Assembly: GCA_011620315.1 (NCBI GenBank) | Contig: WOZO01000144.1 | Span: forward strand, 1-37,472 | Length of the DNA: 37,472 nucleotides | Source of the DNA: Sideroxydans sp. | GTDB taxonomy: Bacteria > Pseudomonadota > Gammaproteobacteria > Burkholderiales > Gallionellaceae | Direction: 5' to 3' | In this document: in pieces, positions 7,105-19,054 of the stretch | How the letters are laid out: each line of letters begins with the position of its first letter | Position numbering within the stretch: the first letter of the stretch is position 1 | The notes under the pieces: generated by a model | Databases searched by the model: none | The model's input: the letters and a program-made list of their open reading frames with translations, nothing else | Told to the model about the DNA's origin: nothing | Translations under genes and position numbers: made by a program

Positions 7105-9707
7105 GCCGCTCCTTCGAGGAAGTCCTGCGCAAAGCGTTGCAGTACACCGCCCGCCTTGTAGACACGCACTTCGGCAGCGGTATCCAGACGGCAGGTGACC
7201 GGGATGCGCACCGAAGCACCATTCCTGCGGTGCATGATCACGGTCAGTTTTGCGCGCGGCGTGATGTCGCCTTCCACATCATAGGTCTCGCTACCGTCGA
7301 TGGCGTAAGTCTTGCGCGTATCGCCCGCCTTGAACTCCAGCGGCAGCACGCCCATGCCGACCAAATTGGTGCGGTGGATGCGCTCGAAACCTTCCGCAAC
7401 GATGACTTCCACACCGGCCAGACGCACGCCTTTGGCTGCCCAGTCGCGCGAAGAGCCCTGACCGTAGTCGGCGCCCGCGATGATGATCAGGTTCTGCTTG
7501 CGCTCCATGTAAGTCTCGATGGCTTCCCACATGCGCATCACCTTGCCGTCCGGTTCGACGCGGGCGAGGGAGCCTTTCTTTACCTCACCATCGAGCACGG
7601 CCATCTCGTTGACCAATTGCGGATTGGCAAACGTGGCGCGTTGCGCGGTGAGGTGGTCGCCGCGGTGCGTCGCATAGGAGTTGAAGTCCTCTTCCGGCAG
7701 GCCCATCTTCGCCAGATATTCACCGGCAGCAGAGTCGAGCAGGATCGCGTTCGAAGGCGACAAGTGGTCGGTGGTGATGTTGTCCGGCAATACGGCAAGC
7801 GGACGCATTCCCTTCATCGTGCGAACACCTGCCAGTGCGCCTTCCCAATACGGCGGACGACGGATGTAGGTGGACTTTGGCCGCCAGTCGTACAACGGGC
7901 ACTTCGCCGCTTCGATCACGCCCAGATCGAACATCGGGTTGTAGACCTGCTTGAACTGTTCCGGCTTCACGCTGGACGCAACGATCGCGTCGATCTCTTC
8001 GTCGGCAGGCCAGATGTCTTTCAGCGTGACTGGCTTGCCGGACTTGTCCGTGCCCAGTGCATCTTGTTCGATATCGAAGCGCACCGTACCCGCGATGGCG
8101 TAAGCGACCACCAGCGGCGGGGAAGCCAGGAAGGCCTGCTTCGCATACGGGTGGATACGACCGTCGAAGTTGCGGTTGCCGGACAGTACGGCGGTGGCGC
8201 ACAGGTCGCGGTCTATGATCTCCTGCTGGATCTTGGGATCGAGTGCGCCGGACATGCCGTTACACGTGGTGCAGGCGAAGCCGACGATGCCGAAGCCCAG
8301 TTTCTCCAGTTCCGTCAGCAGGCCCGCTTCTTTCAGGTAAAGCTCGGCGACTTTGGAGCCGGGCGCAAAAGAAGTCTTGACCCAGGGCTTGCGCAGCAGA
8401 CCCAGCGCGTTGGCTTTCTTCGCCAGCAGAGCCGCTGCCACCACGTTGCGCGGGTTGGAGGTGTTGGTGCAGGAAGTGATGGCCGCGATGATGACCGCGC
8501 CATCCGGCATCAGGCCTTGCGCTTCTTCGGCCTTGCCCGCAGCCAGCTTGGTTTCGTCGGCGATGCCGCGCTCATGCAGGGCGGACGTCGGCAGACGACG
8601 GTGAGGGTTGGACGGGCCGGCCATATTGCGCACCACGCTGGACAGATCGAAGTTCAGCACGCGCTCGTATTCGGCGGCAACCATCTGGTCCGCCCACAGG
8701 CCGGTGGTCTTGGCATAGTTCTCCACGAGGGCGACCTGCTCGGGCTCGCGGCCGGTCAGCTTCAGGTAGGTGATGGTCTGCGCGTCGATGTAGAACATCG
8801 CCGCCGTCGCTCCGTATTCCGGGCACATGTTGGAGATGGTCGCTCGGTCGCCGATGCTGAGGCTGTCCGCACCCGCGCCGAAGAATTCGACCCAGGCGCC
8901 AACCACTTTTTCCATGCGCAAAAACTCGGTCAGCGCCAGCACGATGTCGGTGGCGGTGATGCCGGGCTGCCGCTTGCCGACCAGCTTGACGCCGACGATG
9001 TCCGGCAGGCGCATCATGGAAGGCAAGCCCAGCATGACGGTCTCCGCTTCCAGACCGCCAACACCAATCGCGATCACGCCGAGGGCATCGACATGCGGCG
9101 TGTGCGAGTCGGTGCCCACGCAGGTATCGGGGAAGGCAACGCCGTCGCGCGCCTGGATCACCGGCGACATCTTCTCCAGATTGATCTGGTGCATGATGCC
9201 GTTGCCGGCCGGGATCACGTCAACATTCTTGAACGCGGTCTTGGTCCACTCGATGAAATGGAAACGGTCCTCGTTGCGACGGTCTTCGATCTCGCGGTTC
9301 TTGCGGAATGCATCCTTGTCGAAGCCGGCCGCTTCCACGGCTAGCGAGTGATCGACGATTAACTGCGTCGGCACCACCGGGTTGATCAAGGCCGGGTCAC
9401 CGCCCCGGTCGGTGATCGCGTCACGCAGACCGGCGAGGTCCACCAGGGCGGTCTGGCCGAGGATGTCGTGGCACACCACACGTGCGGGATACCAGGGGAA
9501 ATCGAGATCGTTCTTGCGCTCGATGAGTTGTTTCAGCGCATCGGTCAACGCTTCCGGTTCGCAGCGGCGCACCAGTTGTTCTGCCAGCACTTTGGAAGTG
9601 TAGGGCAGCTTGGCATAAGCGCCGGACTGGATGGCTTCGACTGCCGCTCGGGTGTCGAAGAAGTCCAGCTTGGTTCCGGCCAAGTGCTTGCGGTATGCGG
9701 TATTCAT
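7101..9707 (-). CDS. acnD: Fe/S-dependent 2-methylcitrate dehydratase AcnD
   Basis: 868-aa aconitase-type protein (TSCTNTSNPRN, ACTTCNGMSGALDP, DYGQGSSRDWAAKG) next to prpF. Confidence 0.95.
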   Translation of the reverse strand: MNTAYRKHLAGTKLDFFDTRAAVEAIQSGAYAKLPYTSKVLAEQLVRRCEPEALTDALKQLIERKNDLDFPWYPARVVCHDILGQTALVDLAGLRDAITDRGGDPALINPVVPTQLIVDHSLAVEAAGFDKDAFRKNREIEDRRNEDRFHFIEWTKTAFKNVDVIPAGNGIMHQINLEKMSPVIQARDGVAFPDTCVGTDSHTPHVDALGVIAIGVGGLEAETVMLGLPSMMRLPDIVGVKLVGKRQPGITATDIVLALTEFLRMEKVVGAWVEFFGAGADSLSIGDRATISNMCPEYGATAAMFYIDAQTITYLKLTGREPEQVALVENYAKTTGLWADQMVAAEYERVLNFDLSSVVRNMAGPSNPHRRLPTSALHERGIADETKLAAGKAEEAQGLMPDGAVIIAAITSCTNTSNPRNVVAAALLAKKANALGLLRKPWVKTSFAPGSKVAELYLKEAGLLTELEKLGFGIVGFACTTCNGMSGALDPKIQQEIIDRDLCATAVLSGNRNFDGRIHPYAKQAFLASPPLVVAYAIAGTVRFDIEQDALGTDKSGKPVTLKDIWPADEEIDAIVASSVKPEQFKQVYNPMFDLGVIEAAKCPLYDWRPKSTYIRRPPYWEGALAGVRTMKGMRPLAVLPDNITTDHLSPSNAILLDSAAGEYLAKMGLPEEDFNSYATHRGDHLTAQRATFANPQLVNEMAVLDGEVKKGSLARVEPDGKVMRMWEAIETYMERKQNLIIIAGADYGQGSSRDWAAKGVRLAGVEVIVAEGFERIHRTNLVGMGVLPLEFKAGDTRKTYAIDGSETYDVEGDITPRAKLTVIMHRRNGASVRIPVTCRLDTAAEVRVYKAGGVLQRFAQDFLEGAA

Positions 9708-9739
9708 GATGTCTTTCTGGCTAAAGTCAAAAGCTATTT

Positions 9740-9843
9740 GCCACAGAGAACACAGAGCACACAGAGATGGAAGGTTAAGGCCTTCAACGCGCCGCTCTGA
9801 TTGTTTATGCTGTTTTCTCTGTGACCTCTGTGTTCTCTGTGGC
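9740..9843. repeat. Long imperfect inverted repeat of CACAGAG type between prpC and acnD
   Basis: gccacagagaacacagagcacacagag (9740-9766) versus ctctgtgacctctgtgttctctgtggc (ending 9843). Confidence 0.9.
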
Positions 9844-13398: not shown

Positions 13399-13758
13399 TT
13401 ATTCTTCTTTTGTTGATAGAGAGCGGATCAGTCCGTTCAGCATCTTGCCGATTGCATTGGTTTTGGAAATCAAATCCGAAAGGCTATCTGAGCCAATAAG
13501 TTCTAGCCTGGCTGAAATTTGCAGTTGGGTTTCCACTTCCATCAGCGAGCCGTGAGCAATAGAAAGATGATTCAGATATGCACCAGTTGATTTACGCCCA
13601 TGCCCCTCTGCAATGTTTGATGGAATGGAAACAGCAGCACGTCGAATTTGGGAGGTGAGTCCGAATCGCTCGTCAGTTGGAAAAGTGCCGGTCACTTTGT
13701 AGATATTAGTGACCAGCTCCATCGCCTTCTGCCAAACAACCAACTCATAATATTTCAT
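13399..13758 (-). CDS. Four-helix-bundle protein (23S rRNA IVP/S23 family)
   Basis: MKYYELVVWQKAMELV...LTSQIRRAAVSIPSNIAEGHGR...YLNHLSIAHGSLMEVETQL is typical of the family. Confidence 0.93.
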   Translation of the reverse strand: MKYYELVVWQKAMELVTNIYKVTGTFPTDERFGLTSQIRRAAVSIPSNIAEGHGRKSTGAYLNHLSIAHGSLMEVETQLQISARLELIGSDSLSDLISKTNAIGKMLNGLIRSLSTKEE

Positions 13759-14590: not shown

Positions 14591-14793
14591 GGGGTAGCTC
14601 TTGTCATCACTGCATGGAGTACAAATCGGAGCGCGAATCCTAGCATAACTGTCCCTTGCTTTCGTTTCGGTATATTTCGTCGCAAGGGCGGTAATGATGC
14701 GCATGGTCGCCAACCTCTCAAAGCCAAACTGCTCGTTTTCCGCAAATGTTTCGAGTGCCTTTGCAGGTATATCACTGCGCAATCTAGAACTCT

Positions 14794-14812
14794 GGTACTT
14801 CTCGGTTACGAA
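14794..14812 (+). promoter_or_regulatory. Shared upstream motif copy 1 (GGTACTTCTCGGTTACGAA)
   Basis: Same motif as 15734-15752, lying 87 bp upstream of the 14881 start. Confidence 0.5.
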
Positions 14813-14880
14813 CGGCTGTATGAAACGGCAAGGTGCGAACCATTGATGCAGGGCGCATCTTAACCAAGAAAGGAAATGCC

Positions 14881-15693
14881 GTGAGCAAGCAAGCCAACAC
14901 CACAGTTGCCGCAAAAACCACCTACGAAGGCACTGTCATCACGCGAGCAATTGCTCGTGCTGGGAATAATCCCCATCTCAAGGGGCACGTTCACGAAATC
15001 CTGACCAAGGATGCCATGAACCTCAAGGATGTCTTTAGGGGGCAACATACCGAACTGACTAAAAGCACAACAGCCAAGGTGGTTGATTTGGTCACCACCA
15101 AGGGCGGGAAAGTCGTCGGACGCATTCAGGTGAAAGACACGCTCTCTCCAAGCGGAATCAACAAGCTTGTTCGCCAAGTTGCTGATGGGAAGTACCGAAC
15201 CACAAAACTGGTTGGCACCGAAGAGACCACCAAGCTGGTGAACGCGGCCTTCAAGAAGGCAGGATTAAGCAAGCGGATGGTCAGTTCCGGCACATCGTCC
15301 AACACGACTACGACCCTTGCGCAACGTGCGGGAGCAAGTGGCTCTGGCACGCTGGGATGTGCCGTCGGACAGGCTGCCAAATCTGGCGGGGCTGTTGGTG
15401 CCGCAGTAGGGGCTGGTATTGAAGTGGTCGGCGGTATTGTTGATCTGACGAATGGCAAGCGTGACGCTGGAGAGGTTGCAGTTGCGGTAGCAAAAGCCGG
15501 AGCCAAGGGATACGCCACAGGGGCGTCGGCAGGCGCAGCAGCAACAGTCGGAGGCGCGCTGGCAGCAGAAGGATTGGTCGTAATTGGAGCCGGAGCAACG
15601 TTCACAACGGTTGCCACATTTGCTGCGCCAGTAGTGGCTGCCGTGGCAGTCGGCTATGTGGTTTCGGAAGTATGGGGTTGGCTGTTCGACTAA
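14881..15693 (+). CDS. Hypothetical protein: soluble N-terminal domain plus glycine-zipper/hydrophobic C-terminal domain
   Basis: GTG start after AAGAAAGGAAATGCC; ORF track starts at 14833. C-terminus ...[46 protein letters not shown]. Confidence 0.75.
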
Positions 15694-15733
15694 TGGCTTT
15701 ATCGATGCTTCCGCAGATGTAAACGTAGTGTCG

Positions 15734-15752
15734 GGTAGTTCTCGGTTACTAA
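15734..15752 (+). promoter_or_regulatory. Shared upstream motif copy 2 (GGTAGTTCTCGGTTACTAA)
   Basis: Same motif as 14794-14812, lying 84 bp upstream of the 15818 start. Confidence 0.5.
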
Positions 15753-15817
15753 ATTCATCCCAGCCAGTCACAATTCACTCATCGACACATCGGATGTCGC
15801 AACCAAAGGAGAAGCAG

Positions 15818-16018
15818 ATGAACACGAAAGACAACAACACGAAAACCGTCGCAAGTACAATCGGCGGCGTAACGGCAGCAAGTGGTTTGGCTGCAATCGG
15901 CACCGGCGAGGCAAGCATTGTCGCAGCACCTGCTGCAGTACCGTTGGTCGTTGTATTTGGGGCCGGGTACATTGCGGGGTGTGCGGTATCGAAAGCGTGG
16001 GATTGGTTGGTAGATTAG
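15818..16018 (+). CDS. Small (66 aa) glycine-rich membrane protein, paralogous to the C-terminal domain of the 14881 gene product
   Basis: ATG after AAAGGAGAAGCAG; alignable with the C-terminus of the upstream protein (xTxGG...AAxGLxxIGxG...GYxx...SxxWxWLxD). Confidence 0.7.
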   Translation: MNTKDNNTKTVASTIGGVTAASGLAAIGTGEASIVAAPAAVPLVVVFGAGYIAGCAVSKAWDWLVD

Positions 16019-16106
16019 ATTCCCCCCCCATCCTGTATTCGGCTATAACCGAGAAACCATAGTTTTTACTTATCGGCGCATTAAGTGCCACAAATGGGAG
16101 ATTAAA

Positions 16107-17315
16107 ATGGACGCAACAAAGAACGCGCAATTGAAAGAAATTTTGGAGTCGGCGTTTAAGCATGCAGCCAGTCAAAATATTTCTTCCCCTATCAATTTGG
16201 CAACGCTTGGCGGCATTATAAAATTCTTGAATAGTGACTTTTCTTTCCGTGATTACGGGCATGAGAAGCTTCGTCCATTATTGGAAGAAATGTCCGATGT
16301 TGTCGAACTAGAAAGAGATGACACCTATGCCATGCCAGTGTACTTCGCGAGCCTAAATAAACACCCCTCTGCTCCAATACCAAAGAGCGCCAGTCAAAAT
16401 CTGACAACAACACGCAGTAATGAAATGTCGCTCCCTCGAAACTTTATTAATGAGGTCAGGGCACCCGCTTCCAAGTGGAAGGAGCTTGTCTCGGATAAAG
16501 CATTATTGGAGGAAAACTGGGGCGACCCAGATGATTTGCCGCTGCTTCGTAATTACATTAACTATACCTATGTCCGGCTATTCAACGAAAAGAAGGTGCT
16601 AGTTAAACAATCTGAAGGTATGCCTGTCATTGCCTTTAATACCGGACTTGTTGACCGGCGCTTTGAACCCATATATGCGCTTCTTCAAAAGAACGCTAAA
16701 ACTGGCGACCCTCTTGTTTGGTTTTTGTCCGGTTTTTGTTGCGCTGGCGAAGACTTTCTAGGTAAACAACTTGTAGATTTATTCAATCCACTCCCGGAGG
16801 CAGCCTACTACCTAGAGAAACAGTCAGACGCAATTTATGACATCAGCGCTGGTGAACCTTATATTGACTGGGAACATGTCATTAAAGAAAACGCAGATCG
16901 CATCCCGGCAGAATTACTTTCACGAACAACTAGGGGGTTTGAGACTAAGAACTGCGAAAACATGAATAAGGGCGAACGCGAAAAGTACAAACAAAGTTTT
17001 GCCGCATATATACGCCAAGATGATTTCGCCTATCGCTCCTTAATTGATGCTTTTAAGAGAGCTGTTGAGCTTGCAATCAAGAAAGTACGGTGGAATTACA
17101 AAACTGCTGTCCCCATCTACTTTCCATCTGAAAATACCGTTAGCCTCTTGCTCCCTTTAAGCTTGCTCTCGGATGGTCGCGTTGACTTGGCTATGGTTGT
17201 CGAGAAGCAGCAATCTGGAAACTATCAAGGACACACGATATACACGCTCGACATGGCATACAGCAATGCTCGGCTTATCGCTCGACCTGAAAGTGCGTGG
17301 TTAAAAGAGCTGTAA
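16107..17315 (+). CDS. Protein with OST-HTH/LOTUS-like N-terminus and DUF3825-like C-terminal domain
   Basis: N-term LGGIIKFLNSDFSFRDYGHEKLRPLLEEMSDVVELERD (LOTUS-like); C-term VIAFNTGLVDRRFEPIYALL...AVPIYFPSENTVSLLLPLSL...VDLAMVVE...YTLDMAYSNARLIARPESAWL (DUF3825-like). Confidence 0.8.
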   Translation: MDATKNAQLKEILESAFKHAASQNISSPINLATLGGIIKFLNSDFSFRDYGHEKLRPLLEEMSDVVELERDDTYAMPVYFASLNKHPSAPIPKSASQNLTTTRSNEMSLPRNFINEVRAPASKWKELVSDKALLEENWGDPDDLPLLRNYINYTYVRLFNEKKVLVKQSEGMPVIAFNTGLVDRRFEPIYALLQKNAKTGDPLVWFLSGFCCAGEDFLGKQLVDLFNPLPEAAYYLEKQSDAIYDISAGEPYIDWEHVIKENADRIPAELLSRTTRGFETKNCENMNKGEREKYKQSFAAYIRQDDFAYRSLIDAFKRAVELAIKKVRWNYKTAVPIYFPSENTVSLLLPLSLLSDGRVDLAMVVEKQQSGNYQGHTIYTLDMAYSNARLIARPESAWLKEL

Positions 17316-17341
17316 TCTGTAATCGAAATAAATATTCAAAT

Positions 17342-18970
17342 ATGACTACCGCTAATAATTTAGGGAAACTATTCGATCTGCTTCCATTGCACGCCGAAGA
17401 AGGTCGTCTGCGAAATTCGGTGTCGGAAGATGTCATCATCTCGCAACTCGGCAGTTCTGATTCGGCAACTATCGTGGCGCTTTTTCGGCGCATATTTGAA
17501 AGCTTTTCTCTGCTCGACAAGCATGAGTTGGGCGGGGGTAATTGGGCATTCGTTTCCTTTCCCGCATCATTGATGGCGCGTTCGTTGGTGGCGGCATGGG
17601 CAGTGCCGGGTCAACGATTAGTTGATGAAGGTTATTGGGAAGATGCGGCATTTTCAGAAGATCAGCGCATATTGCTGCATCAACTGGAAGCAGGCAGAAA
17701 TCGCCATCACCCTACAAGCAATGCAATGCCGATCCGCTTTGTACATGTTGCATGGGCACTCATCAGGTTCGGAAATGTTTTTTTGCTGCACCAGCGGGAA
17801 GACAAACTGCGACCAGATGCCAAGCAGTATGTGCTACCCGGTGGGCGCTTACGGCCATCGGATTGTCGAGAAAACCAGCCATCTACCGAGATACTCAAAG
17901 ACTTGTCGTCCGAAAACTCCTGCGTTGCTTCTGCGTCTCTGCCAAATACGCTGATTCGCGAGATTGAAGAAGAGCTTGGCCTGCAAGACGGAATTCATTA
18001 CACATTTGAACCGTGGCGTTCGATCAAGCCCTATTGTGCGGTCGAGGGCGGGGGCAATAAGCACGCTCTGTCACGCTACGAAATCACCTTGTACGCCGTT
18101 AAATTAACTTCACTGGGTGAAACATGCTTGCTGAATCAAATTGTTGCAGATTCTAAACAGTTGCCATTTTTCACTCTTGATGATCTTGTCCAAGGCAAAC
18201 GACCTGATGGGGCTACTGCCTTTATTGATGCGCTGTATCAGGATATGGAAGGGGAATTCGCAGAGCTATTCGATTCGATTCCGGACTCGTCAGGTACGCC
18301 TTACACTTTTGATAAAGCCGAATTGGCAGTTGATTTGCCATCTTGCAGAGATATGCCATTTTTGCGGGGAAAAACAGGGAAGGAGCGCGAAGTTCTGGTC
18401 ACCCTTGATGATTTTGAATGGGAACTCATTTTATTTCTTGGTTGGTGTGCACGGGGTTTTTCGCTGCGCAATGTTAGCGAAGACGTTCTGGTGTTGGGCG
18501 GCGGCTGGGTCAAGTTGCTCAATGTGGATGAGGTCAAAGCAGCCAAGGAAACAGCGCGCAAACTAGAGAAGATGGATTTGCCGATAGTGCAATTTTCTGG
18601 GGACGCATTGAGGCTGGCAATCAAGCCAGAATACACCTATTTTTCTGATCAATTGTTTTCCTACACATATGAGTCTTCAAACAACGAGGGAGGACAGATT
18701 GATTTGTATCTCAAAGAGAAAATAACCCGTTTCGCTGTTCTGTCTGCTCAACAGCACCGTTTAAACGTGCCAAGAAATATTGCGATCGTGATTGAAACGA
18801 TACATGCAGGCATAGACACATCACAGGTTGCAGTTATAAGAAATGCAGAAAAAAGCATACAGAAGCAGAATCTTGATACGGTAACAAAAGAAGTTTCTCG
18901 GATGGGGCTTCGGCGTTTAATAAAAATGCCTAATAACGGAGGGATGTCTATTGTTGCGTTGAATCGATAG
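17342..18970 (+). CDS. Nudix-domain protein with a large C-terminal region of unknown function
   Basis: LPGGRL ... LIREIEEELGL (Nudix G and REXXEEXG elements separated by an insertion); start MTTANNLG at 17342, 26 bp after the preceding gene. Confidence 0.75.
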   Translation: MTTANNLGKLFDLLPLHAEEGRLRNSVSEDVIISQLGSSDSATIVALFRRIFESFSLLDKHELGGGNWAFVSFPASLMARSLVAAWAVPGQRLVDEGYWEDAAFSEDQRILLHQLEAGRNRHHPTSNAMPIRFVHVAWALIRFGNVFLLHQREDKLRPDAKQYVLPGGRLRPSDCRENQPSTEILKDLSSENSCVASASLPNTLIREIEEELGLQDGIHYTFEPWRSIKPYCAVEGGGNKHALSRYEITLYAVKLTSLGETCLLNQIVADSKQLPFFTLDDLVQGKRPDGATAFIDALYQDMEGEFAELFDSIPDSSGTPYTFDKAELAVDLPSCRDMPFLRGKTGKEREVLVTLDDFEWELILFLGWCARGFSLRNVSEDVLVLGGGWVKLLNVDEVKAAKETARKLEKMDLPIVQFSGDALRLAIKPEYTYFSDQLFSYTYESSNNEGGQIDLYLKEKITRFAVLSAQQHRLNVPRNIAIVIETIHAGIDTSQVAVIRNAEKSIQKQNLDTVTKEVSRMGLRRLIKMPNNGGMSIVALNR

Positions 18971-19054
18971 AAGCTGGTCTTTGTATTTTGTCTTCCATCC
19001 TGTTGTGTCATAGATTCGTATAATCGCGCACTCCATCATTTCTCTAGGTCAAAA

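Follow-up and report, generated by a model that had tools for sequence, protein, structure and literature searches.

A four-gene insertion with a split-Nudix protein in Sideroxydans sp.: a possible defence-type island of exchangeable parts

The inserted block and its genes

Four genes, here called P0001 to P0004, were analysed in a stretch of 37,472 nucleotides (the window) from Sideroxydans sp. (GenBank assembly GCA_011620315.1, contig WOZO01000144.1, positions 1 to 37,472 of the forward strand). As a reading made from the letters without database searches (the sequence-only reading) had described, they are four open reading frames (ORFs) on the plus strand, flanked by thyA (minus strand) and an M17 peptidase gene (plus strand), and the last two are 26 bp apart. 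The sequence shared with the empty site of relatives runs to ...GGGGTAGC (about 14598) on the left and restarts with CGTATAATCGCG (about 19017) on the right, and the insert therefore measures about 4.4 kb. The site is empty in 11 of the 15 same-genus genomes, with a spacing between thyA and the peptidase gene of 16-160 bp (measured between the matched coding ends of genes that face each other), so that the block is not ordinary content of all close relatives; in 4 of the 15, different inserts of about 0.8-1.3 kb were found there. P0004 was not found in the 33 same-genus genomes and 27 other relatives that were searched. Judged from the empty site and from the missing P0004 in relatives, the block is accessory and was gained by horizontal transfer at a small hotspot for insertions, and its acquisition at this core site is, on the same comparison, recent. 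The sequence-only reading had called the whole block AT-richer, which holds for P0002 to P0004 (guanine-plus-cytosine content 0.44-0.50 versus 0.57-0.64 across much of the flanks) and fails for P0001 (0.54-0.56, about equal to the thyA side).

P0004 is probably an active Nudix hydrolase, as its family alignment and its predicted structure suggest. The match of P0004 itself to the Pfam Nudix profile (PF00293, expect value (E) 0.0033) lies under the Pfam cut-off, and the profile is matched by 36 of the 37 family members (best 2e-9). The AlphaFold model, built with 36 sequences, has a Nudix fold with a mean predicted local distance difference test (pLDDT) score of 89, and a Foldseek search with it gave 38 PDB matches at E <= 0.001, all of Nudix fold among the matches listed. 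G167-G168-R169 and R206-E207-x-x-E210-E211 are invariant (37/37 relatives). The Nudix box GX5EX7REUXEEXGU is interrupted in all family members by an insert of about 30 amino acids (aa) after GGR, which in P0004 lies ahead of REIEEELGL. Since the insert is kept family-wide, a frameshift and a sequencing error were both rejected as the cause of the split box. The family thus resembles the Nudix hydrolases of PF00293 in the fold, the REUxEExGU helix and the GGR before this helix, but differs from them in the split box, in the glutamate of the GX5E position, which is not conserved, and in the extra N- and C-terminal domains. The earlier split-Nudix call is upheld by the family matches and the model, not by the match of P0004 alone, and the split belongs to the whole family. 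Among the papers listed in literature searches on Nudix proteins in anti-phage or HEPN contexts, which reached few subscription papers, this family was not described.

The N-terminal domain of P0004, helical in the model, gave no match to helix-turn-helix profiles or to the PDB. In NrtR/AraR regulators the Nudix box is impaired (PMC4666351), and P0004 was rejected as an NrtR member since the catalytic residues of its Nudix box are intact. The two are alike in a Nudix domain within a multi-domain protein and in repeated elements in the leaders of neighbouring genes, but P0004 is much larger and a winged helix in it is a conjecture. In the relative on a plasmid in L009 (8001-9686; L numbers denote individual loci), the Nudix coding sequence is annotated with a start at 8622, which is too late because the 207 conserved N-terminal residues (LPRHAEEE... 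FVSFPA) start at 8001.

The naming of P0003 as a LOTUS-like/DUF3825 protein was borne out by profile search, with E 8.2e-10 (38.8 bits, gathering score 23.8) for OST-HTH (PF12872) and E 2.5e-63 (214 bits, gathering score 27) for DUF3825 (PF12873). The bacterial OST-HTH members have been described as almost all DUF88 fusions (Anantharaman 2010, PMC2848206). P0003 is like the OST-HTH/LOTUS proteins in its single OST-HTH domain, but its fusion is to DUF3825, which is not described in that paper; by Pfam, DUF3825 is the only partner domain, and the usual DUF88/NYN nuclease is not present. A PDB profile search with DUF3825 gave no credible match, and no mention of DUF3825 was found in the literature searched, in which few subscription papers were covered. 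Escherichia coli genomes gave no DNA match to the DUF3825 copy of an Enterobacter plasmid. In Streptomyces anulatus (L090, 4776-9537) a DUF3825 gene lies directly before a helicase gene and type I-E CRISPR (clustered regularly interspaced short palindromic repeats) genes.

The longest ORF of P0001 begins at 14833, and the GTG at 14881 is the better-supported start (AAGGAA upstream, and agreement with the N-terminus of the L108 homologue), so that the protein has 270-286 aa depending on the start. E39, D69, Q83 and K85, counted from the 14881 start, are invariant in five homologues, and this E...D...QxK series is also kept in a distant phage homologue of 37% identity. The motif pattern E...D...(E/Q)xK is that of PD-(D/E)XK nucleases, from which we infer a soluble nuclease-like N-terminal domain of this type. 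The C-terminal tail is glycine/alanine-rich and of membrane type. P0002 resembles this tail with 42% identity over 55 aa (E 4e-6, tblastn). The earlier description of both as membrane-active small proteins accordingly has to be amended for P0001. Residues 42-145 of P0001 match PADLOC PDC-M72B weakly (E 0.004, below the safe threshold), and no other PDC-M72 component was found. P0002 is alike in position and style to a small glycine-rich protein beside Mokosh in L027, with no significant alignment between the two.

Table 1. Positions of the insertion, genes and leader elements in the window, and loci of the kinase/receiver/Nudix arrangement
Feature	Position or loci	Strand	Description
Insertion in the thyA/M17 peptidase gap	14599..19016	.	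P0004 absent from 60 relatives
P0001	14881..15693	+	E...D...QxK N-terminal domain (restriction-endonuclease-like, inferred) and glycine-rich membrane-type C-terminal tail
P0002	15818..16018	+	66-aa small glycine-rich membrane-type protein, like the C-terminal tail of P0001
P0003	16107..17315	+	OST-HTH/LOTUS (aa 7-73) and DUF3825 (aa 134-398), by Pfam
P0004	17342..18970	+	N-terminal domain (about 1-125), Nudix domain, C-terminal domain (about 340-542)
TTCTCGGTTA	14799..14808	+	P0001 leader; inverted copy with one mismatch at 14861-14870
TTCTCGGTTA	15739..15748	+	P0002 leader
TTCTCGGTTA	16046..16055	- (reversed)	P0003 leader
Kinase/receiver/Nudix loci	L009, L013-L015, L019, L021, L029-L033, L036, L038-L040, L042, L043, L046, L047, L049-L051, L055, L058		Sel1/TPR histidine kinase, receiver-like protein and Nudix gene

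In the same-genus relatives, other small inserts were seen in the thyA-peptidase gap of L076, L077, L082 and L083; that of L083 holds a PIN/antitoxin pair, and that of L082 encodes a coiled-coil membrane-type protein. Outside the block, between thyA and the DHFR gene, the window carries at 13399-13758 a gene for a four-helix protein like bAvd and the proteins of 23S ribosomal RNA intervening sequences (PF05635, E 1e-39), which is found at the same position in 2 of the 15 relatives (L080 and L081).

Relatives of the Nudix protein and their partners

Relatives of P0004 were collected by scanning a set with a single genome for each species, three P0004 relatives serving as the query, and 49 Nudix loci were obtained in beta- and gammaproteobacteria (about 50 with a Methylomonas plasmid added). 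Clustering of their neighbours showed changing partners around a constant Nudix gene.

In 24 loci the Nudix gene is accompanied by genes for a Sel1/TPR histidine kinase and for a receiver-like protein. Among full-length rows, the kinase histidine and the N-box asparagine are invariant in 24/24, and the acidic residues and R-N-x3-H of the receiver-like protein in 23/23; HEPN domains have R-N-x3-H as their RNase motif. In most methanotrophs the receiver gene is separated from the Nudix gene by variable, exchangeable PIN/antitoxin genes. No PADLOC match was obtained for the kinase/receiver neighbours in the members tested, and the set of Sel1/TPR kinase, receiver-HEPN-like protein and Nudix protein is apparently an undescribed system. 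A very small acidic ORF, such as MNDDYDDYQQDLMQEIVQEVYEYSSNCQRSEDEGWFYPDEDEE in L015, opens the kinase operon, immediately ahead of the kinase gene, in L015, L016 and L019 and perhaps in L013. The pairing of histidine kinase and receiver follows a logic similar to that of Detocs, but no purine nucleoside phosphorylase effector occurs in these loci and the receiver has the HEPN-like motif instead; the window itself holds neither kinase nor receiver, and no receiver homologue was found in its genome.

Known defence genes adjoin other members of the family. In L025 and L027 the Nudix gene has Mokosh as its partner (MkoA, E 9e-230; MkoB, E 4e-84), and in L054 MkoA was found close to a Nudix gene that is truncated. 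The partners are a CBASS (cyclic oligonucleotide-based antiphage signalling system) cyclase (E 5e-189) with its S_4TM effector in L061, and type I restriction-modification genes in L052, L053 and L056. Homologues of P0001 adjoin the Nudix gene in L060, L026 and L054, with a remnant in L061. In a genome without the Nudix gene (L108, 145-6082), the P0001 homologue stands beside an IS3-type transposase, a GmrSD_N protein and BrxL, in a BREX (bacteriophage exclusion) neighbourhood. Complete or partial Mokosh, CBASS, type I restriction-modification and BREX systems thus adjoin relatives of P0004 or P0001, but none lies within the window. In L061 (7260-9826) the CBASS cyclase and S_4TM effector occupy the place of P0001, the remnant of which lies next to the Nudix gene (9689-9826), so that one partner seems to have replaced another there.

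DUF3825 adjoins the Nudix gene in 3 of the about 50 loci, namely the window, L060 (Chitinilyticum aquatile, same record as L006/G173) and L024, and it is missing from 47. The LOTUS-DUF3825 gene is upstream of the Nudix gene in the window; in L024 DUF3825 is downstream and preceded by a cold-shock domain (by Pfam), and such a domain was also seen by eye before the DUF3825 of L060. On a quick Nudix tree, the window groups with L013, which has a kinase/receiver partner, L024 with L022, which has a HEPN-like one, and L060 with L061/L026, which have one of P0001 type, the exact placement of the window being uncertain owing to its long branch. Parsimony requires three changes at three separate places on this tree, by which DUF3825 and the Nudix gene are joined separately each time in the three genomes. 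Elsewhere DUF3825 is rare, with one find among 397 further genomes from the order and one among 398 from the phylum, so that three such adjacencies in about 50 loci are far beyond chance. The record of L024 is labelled as a Klebsiella pneumoniae metagenome-assembled genome, the Nudix protein of which groups with betaproteobacterial copies (Gallionellaceae, L022), and may be a mislabelled bin.

Leader element and flanking repeats

The leaders of P0001, P0002 and P0003 share the 10-bp element TTCTCGGTTA (Table 1), of which the 2.9-Mb genome contains four copies, three of them in these leaders. A shared 10-mer arose in 0 of 20,000 simulated leader sets. The element suggests local co-regulation, and the fact that its copies face both ways points to a site on the DNA and not to one acting in the RNA. 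A generic scan for promoters and terminators gave a site count not above that of shuffled sequences.

In other betaproteobacterial loci a repeat of another sequence, GGAG-N7-GGAG, which resembles the TTCTCGGTTA site in look but differs from it, stands immediately ahead of the Nudix gene, with an inverted copy at the 3' end of this gene, before the partner genes. In L013, L016, L022, L024, L026 and L060 only the Nudix gene lies between the inverted copies, and the repeat was found on one flank or in direct orientation in L014, L015, L018, L019, L025, L027, L054 and L061, the direct copies of L014 lying around the kinase, receiver and Nudix genes together. The two copies match within L013, L016, L022 and L024 and differ between loci. 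The P0004 copy of the window has no such flanks. These repeats may serve as the operator for a regulator that evolves along with them, or they may be the termini of a mobile cassette.

Interpretation and alternatives

Our leading but tentative reading, to which we give a little less than even confidence, is that the block is a horizontally acquired, defence-type (abortive-infection-like) island of exchangeable parts with the Nudix protein as the shared enzyme or regulator. P0004, as the widely conserved part, would act on a nucleotide-type molecule tied to infection or stress and would keep the partner genes in check, by consuming a signal and/or as a local regulator. P0003, with its RNA-binding LOTUS domain and DUF3825, would act on RNA in place of the HEPN-type RNases found elsewhere, because other loci have such RNases or known defence systems in its place. 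P0001, with its nuclease-like domain joined to a membrane tail, and P0002, as the tail alone, would be add-on membrane components, and P0001 to P0003 would probably be switched together by an island factor via TTCTCGGTTA, since the three leaders share this one element. We infer phage defence from gene context, and the RNA target, the Nudix substrate and the regulation are likewise proposals; the guess of a defence system in the sequence-only reading receives support of context from the same neighbourhoods (Mokosh, CBASS, type I restriction-modification, BREX and RNase-like genes near relatives).

Several results weigh against the reading as a defence-type island. The structure model of P0003, made from a three-sequence alignment, had a pLDDT of 44 and was discarded, so that it gives no fold for DUF3825, and no catalytic residues are evident in this domain; the RNA-acting role is for these reasons a guess from position and from the fused LOTUS and cold-shock domains. 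Many DUF3825 genes occur without a Nudix gene, on plasmids and phages and in genome G486. Pfam and PDB profile searches gave no match of P0001 to a restriction-endonuclease fold, the HEPN assignment of the receiver-like protein relies on the motif and not on a profile match, and a PADLOC search of the window proteins gave no confident match (best E 0.0012, weak). A wider form of the defence-type reading, in which a family of undescribed defence modules combines a constant Nudix protein with an exchangeable RNA-acting effector (receiver-HEPN, other HEPN-like or LOTUS/cold-shock-DUF3825) and DUF3825 is a new RNA-targeting domain controlled by the Nudix protein via a nucleotide signal, is speculative and in our estimate rather unlikely.

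The strongest rival is that P0004 is mainly an NrtR-type transcription regulator, the Nudix-like domain of which senses a ligand while the partner operons are bound at their leaders by a winged helix; the partners would then be the working systems. TTCTCGGTTA, common to all three leaders of the window, the repeat copies, which are alike in one locus but not from locus to locus, as a co-evolving binding protein would lead one to expect, and the presence of NrtR structures among the Foldseek matches of the P0004 model speak for it. The invariant R-E-x-x-E-E, compared with the impaired boxes of NrtR/AraR (PMC4666351), the N-terminal domain without a helix-turn-helix family match, and the inverted repeat, which hugs the Nudix stop codon and not the partner start, speak against it, and we regard this role as rather unlikely. 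The inverted pairs around the Nudix gene alone in six loci, together with the changing partners, could also be explained if the Nudix gene were a cassette that moves or hitch-hikes into defence islands without a functional tie to its neighbours, with the repeats as its ends. This is improbable in view of the window copy without these flanks, the direct sites of L014, the linkage of kinase, receiver and Nudix genes kept across methanotroph species, and the lack of an identified transposase or target duplication.

An ordinary accessory island of stress or toxin-antitoxin type, unrelated to phages, would suit the PIN/antitoxin genes that adjoin the Nudix gene in methanotrophs and the PIN pair at the thyA-peptidase site of L083, but Mokosh, CBASS, restriction-modification and BREX genes are adjacent in relatives, and we consider this explanation quite improbable. 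The sequence-only reading had proposed DUF3825 and the Nudix protein as one obligate two-gene core. The two are indeed side by side in three genomes including the window, where the gap is short, but the pair is confined to these few of the Nudix loci, its gene order varies, and most plasmid and phage DUF3825 genes stand without the Nudix gene, so that a fixed core is hardly credible.

If the reading as a defence-type island of exchangeable parts is true, one uncharacterised Nudix family would be the marker of defence modules at about 50 loci of beta- and gammaproteobacteria, many of which are methanotrophs, and an undescribed kinase/receiver-HEPN system would be added. It would also provide the first functional lead for DUF3825 and would link LOTUS domains to bacterial immunity.

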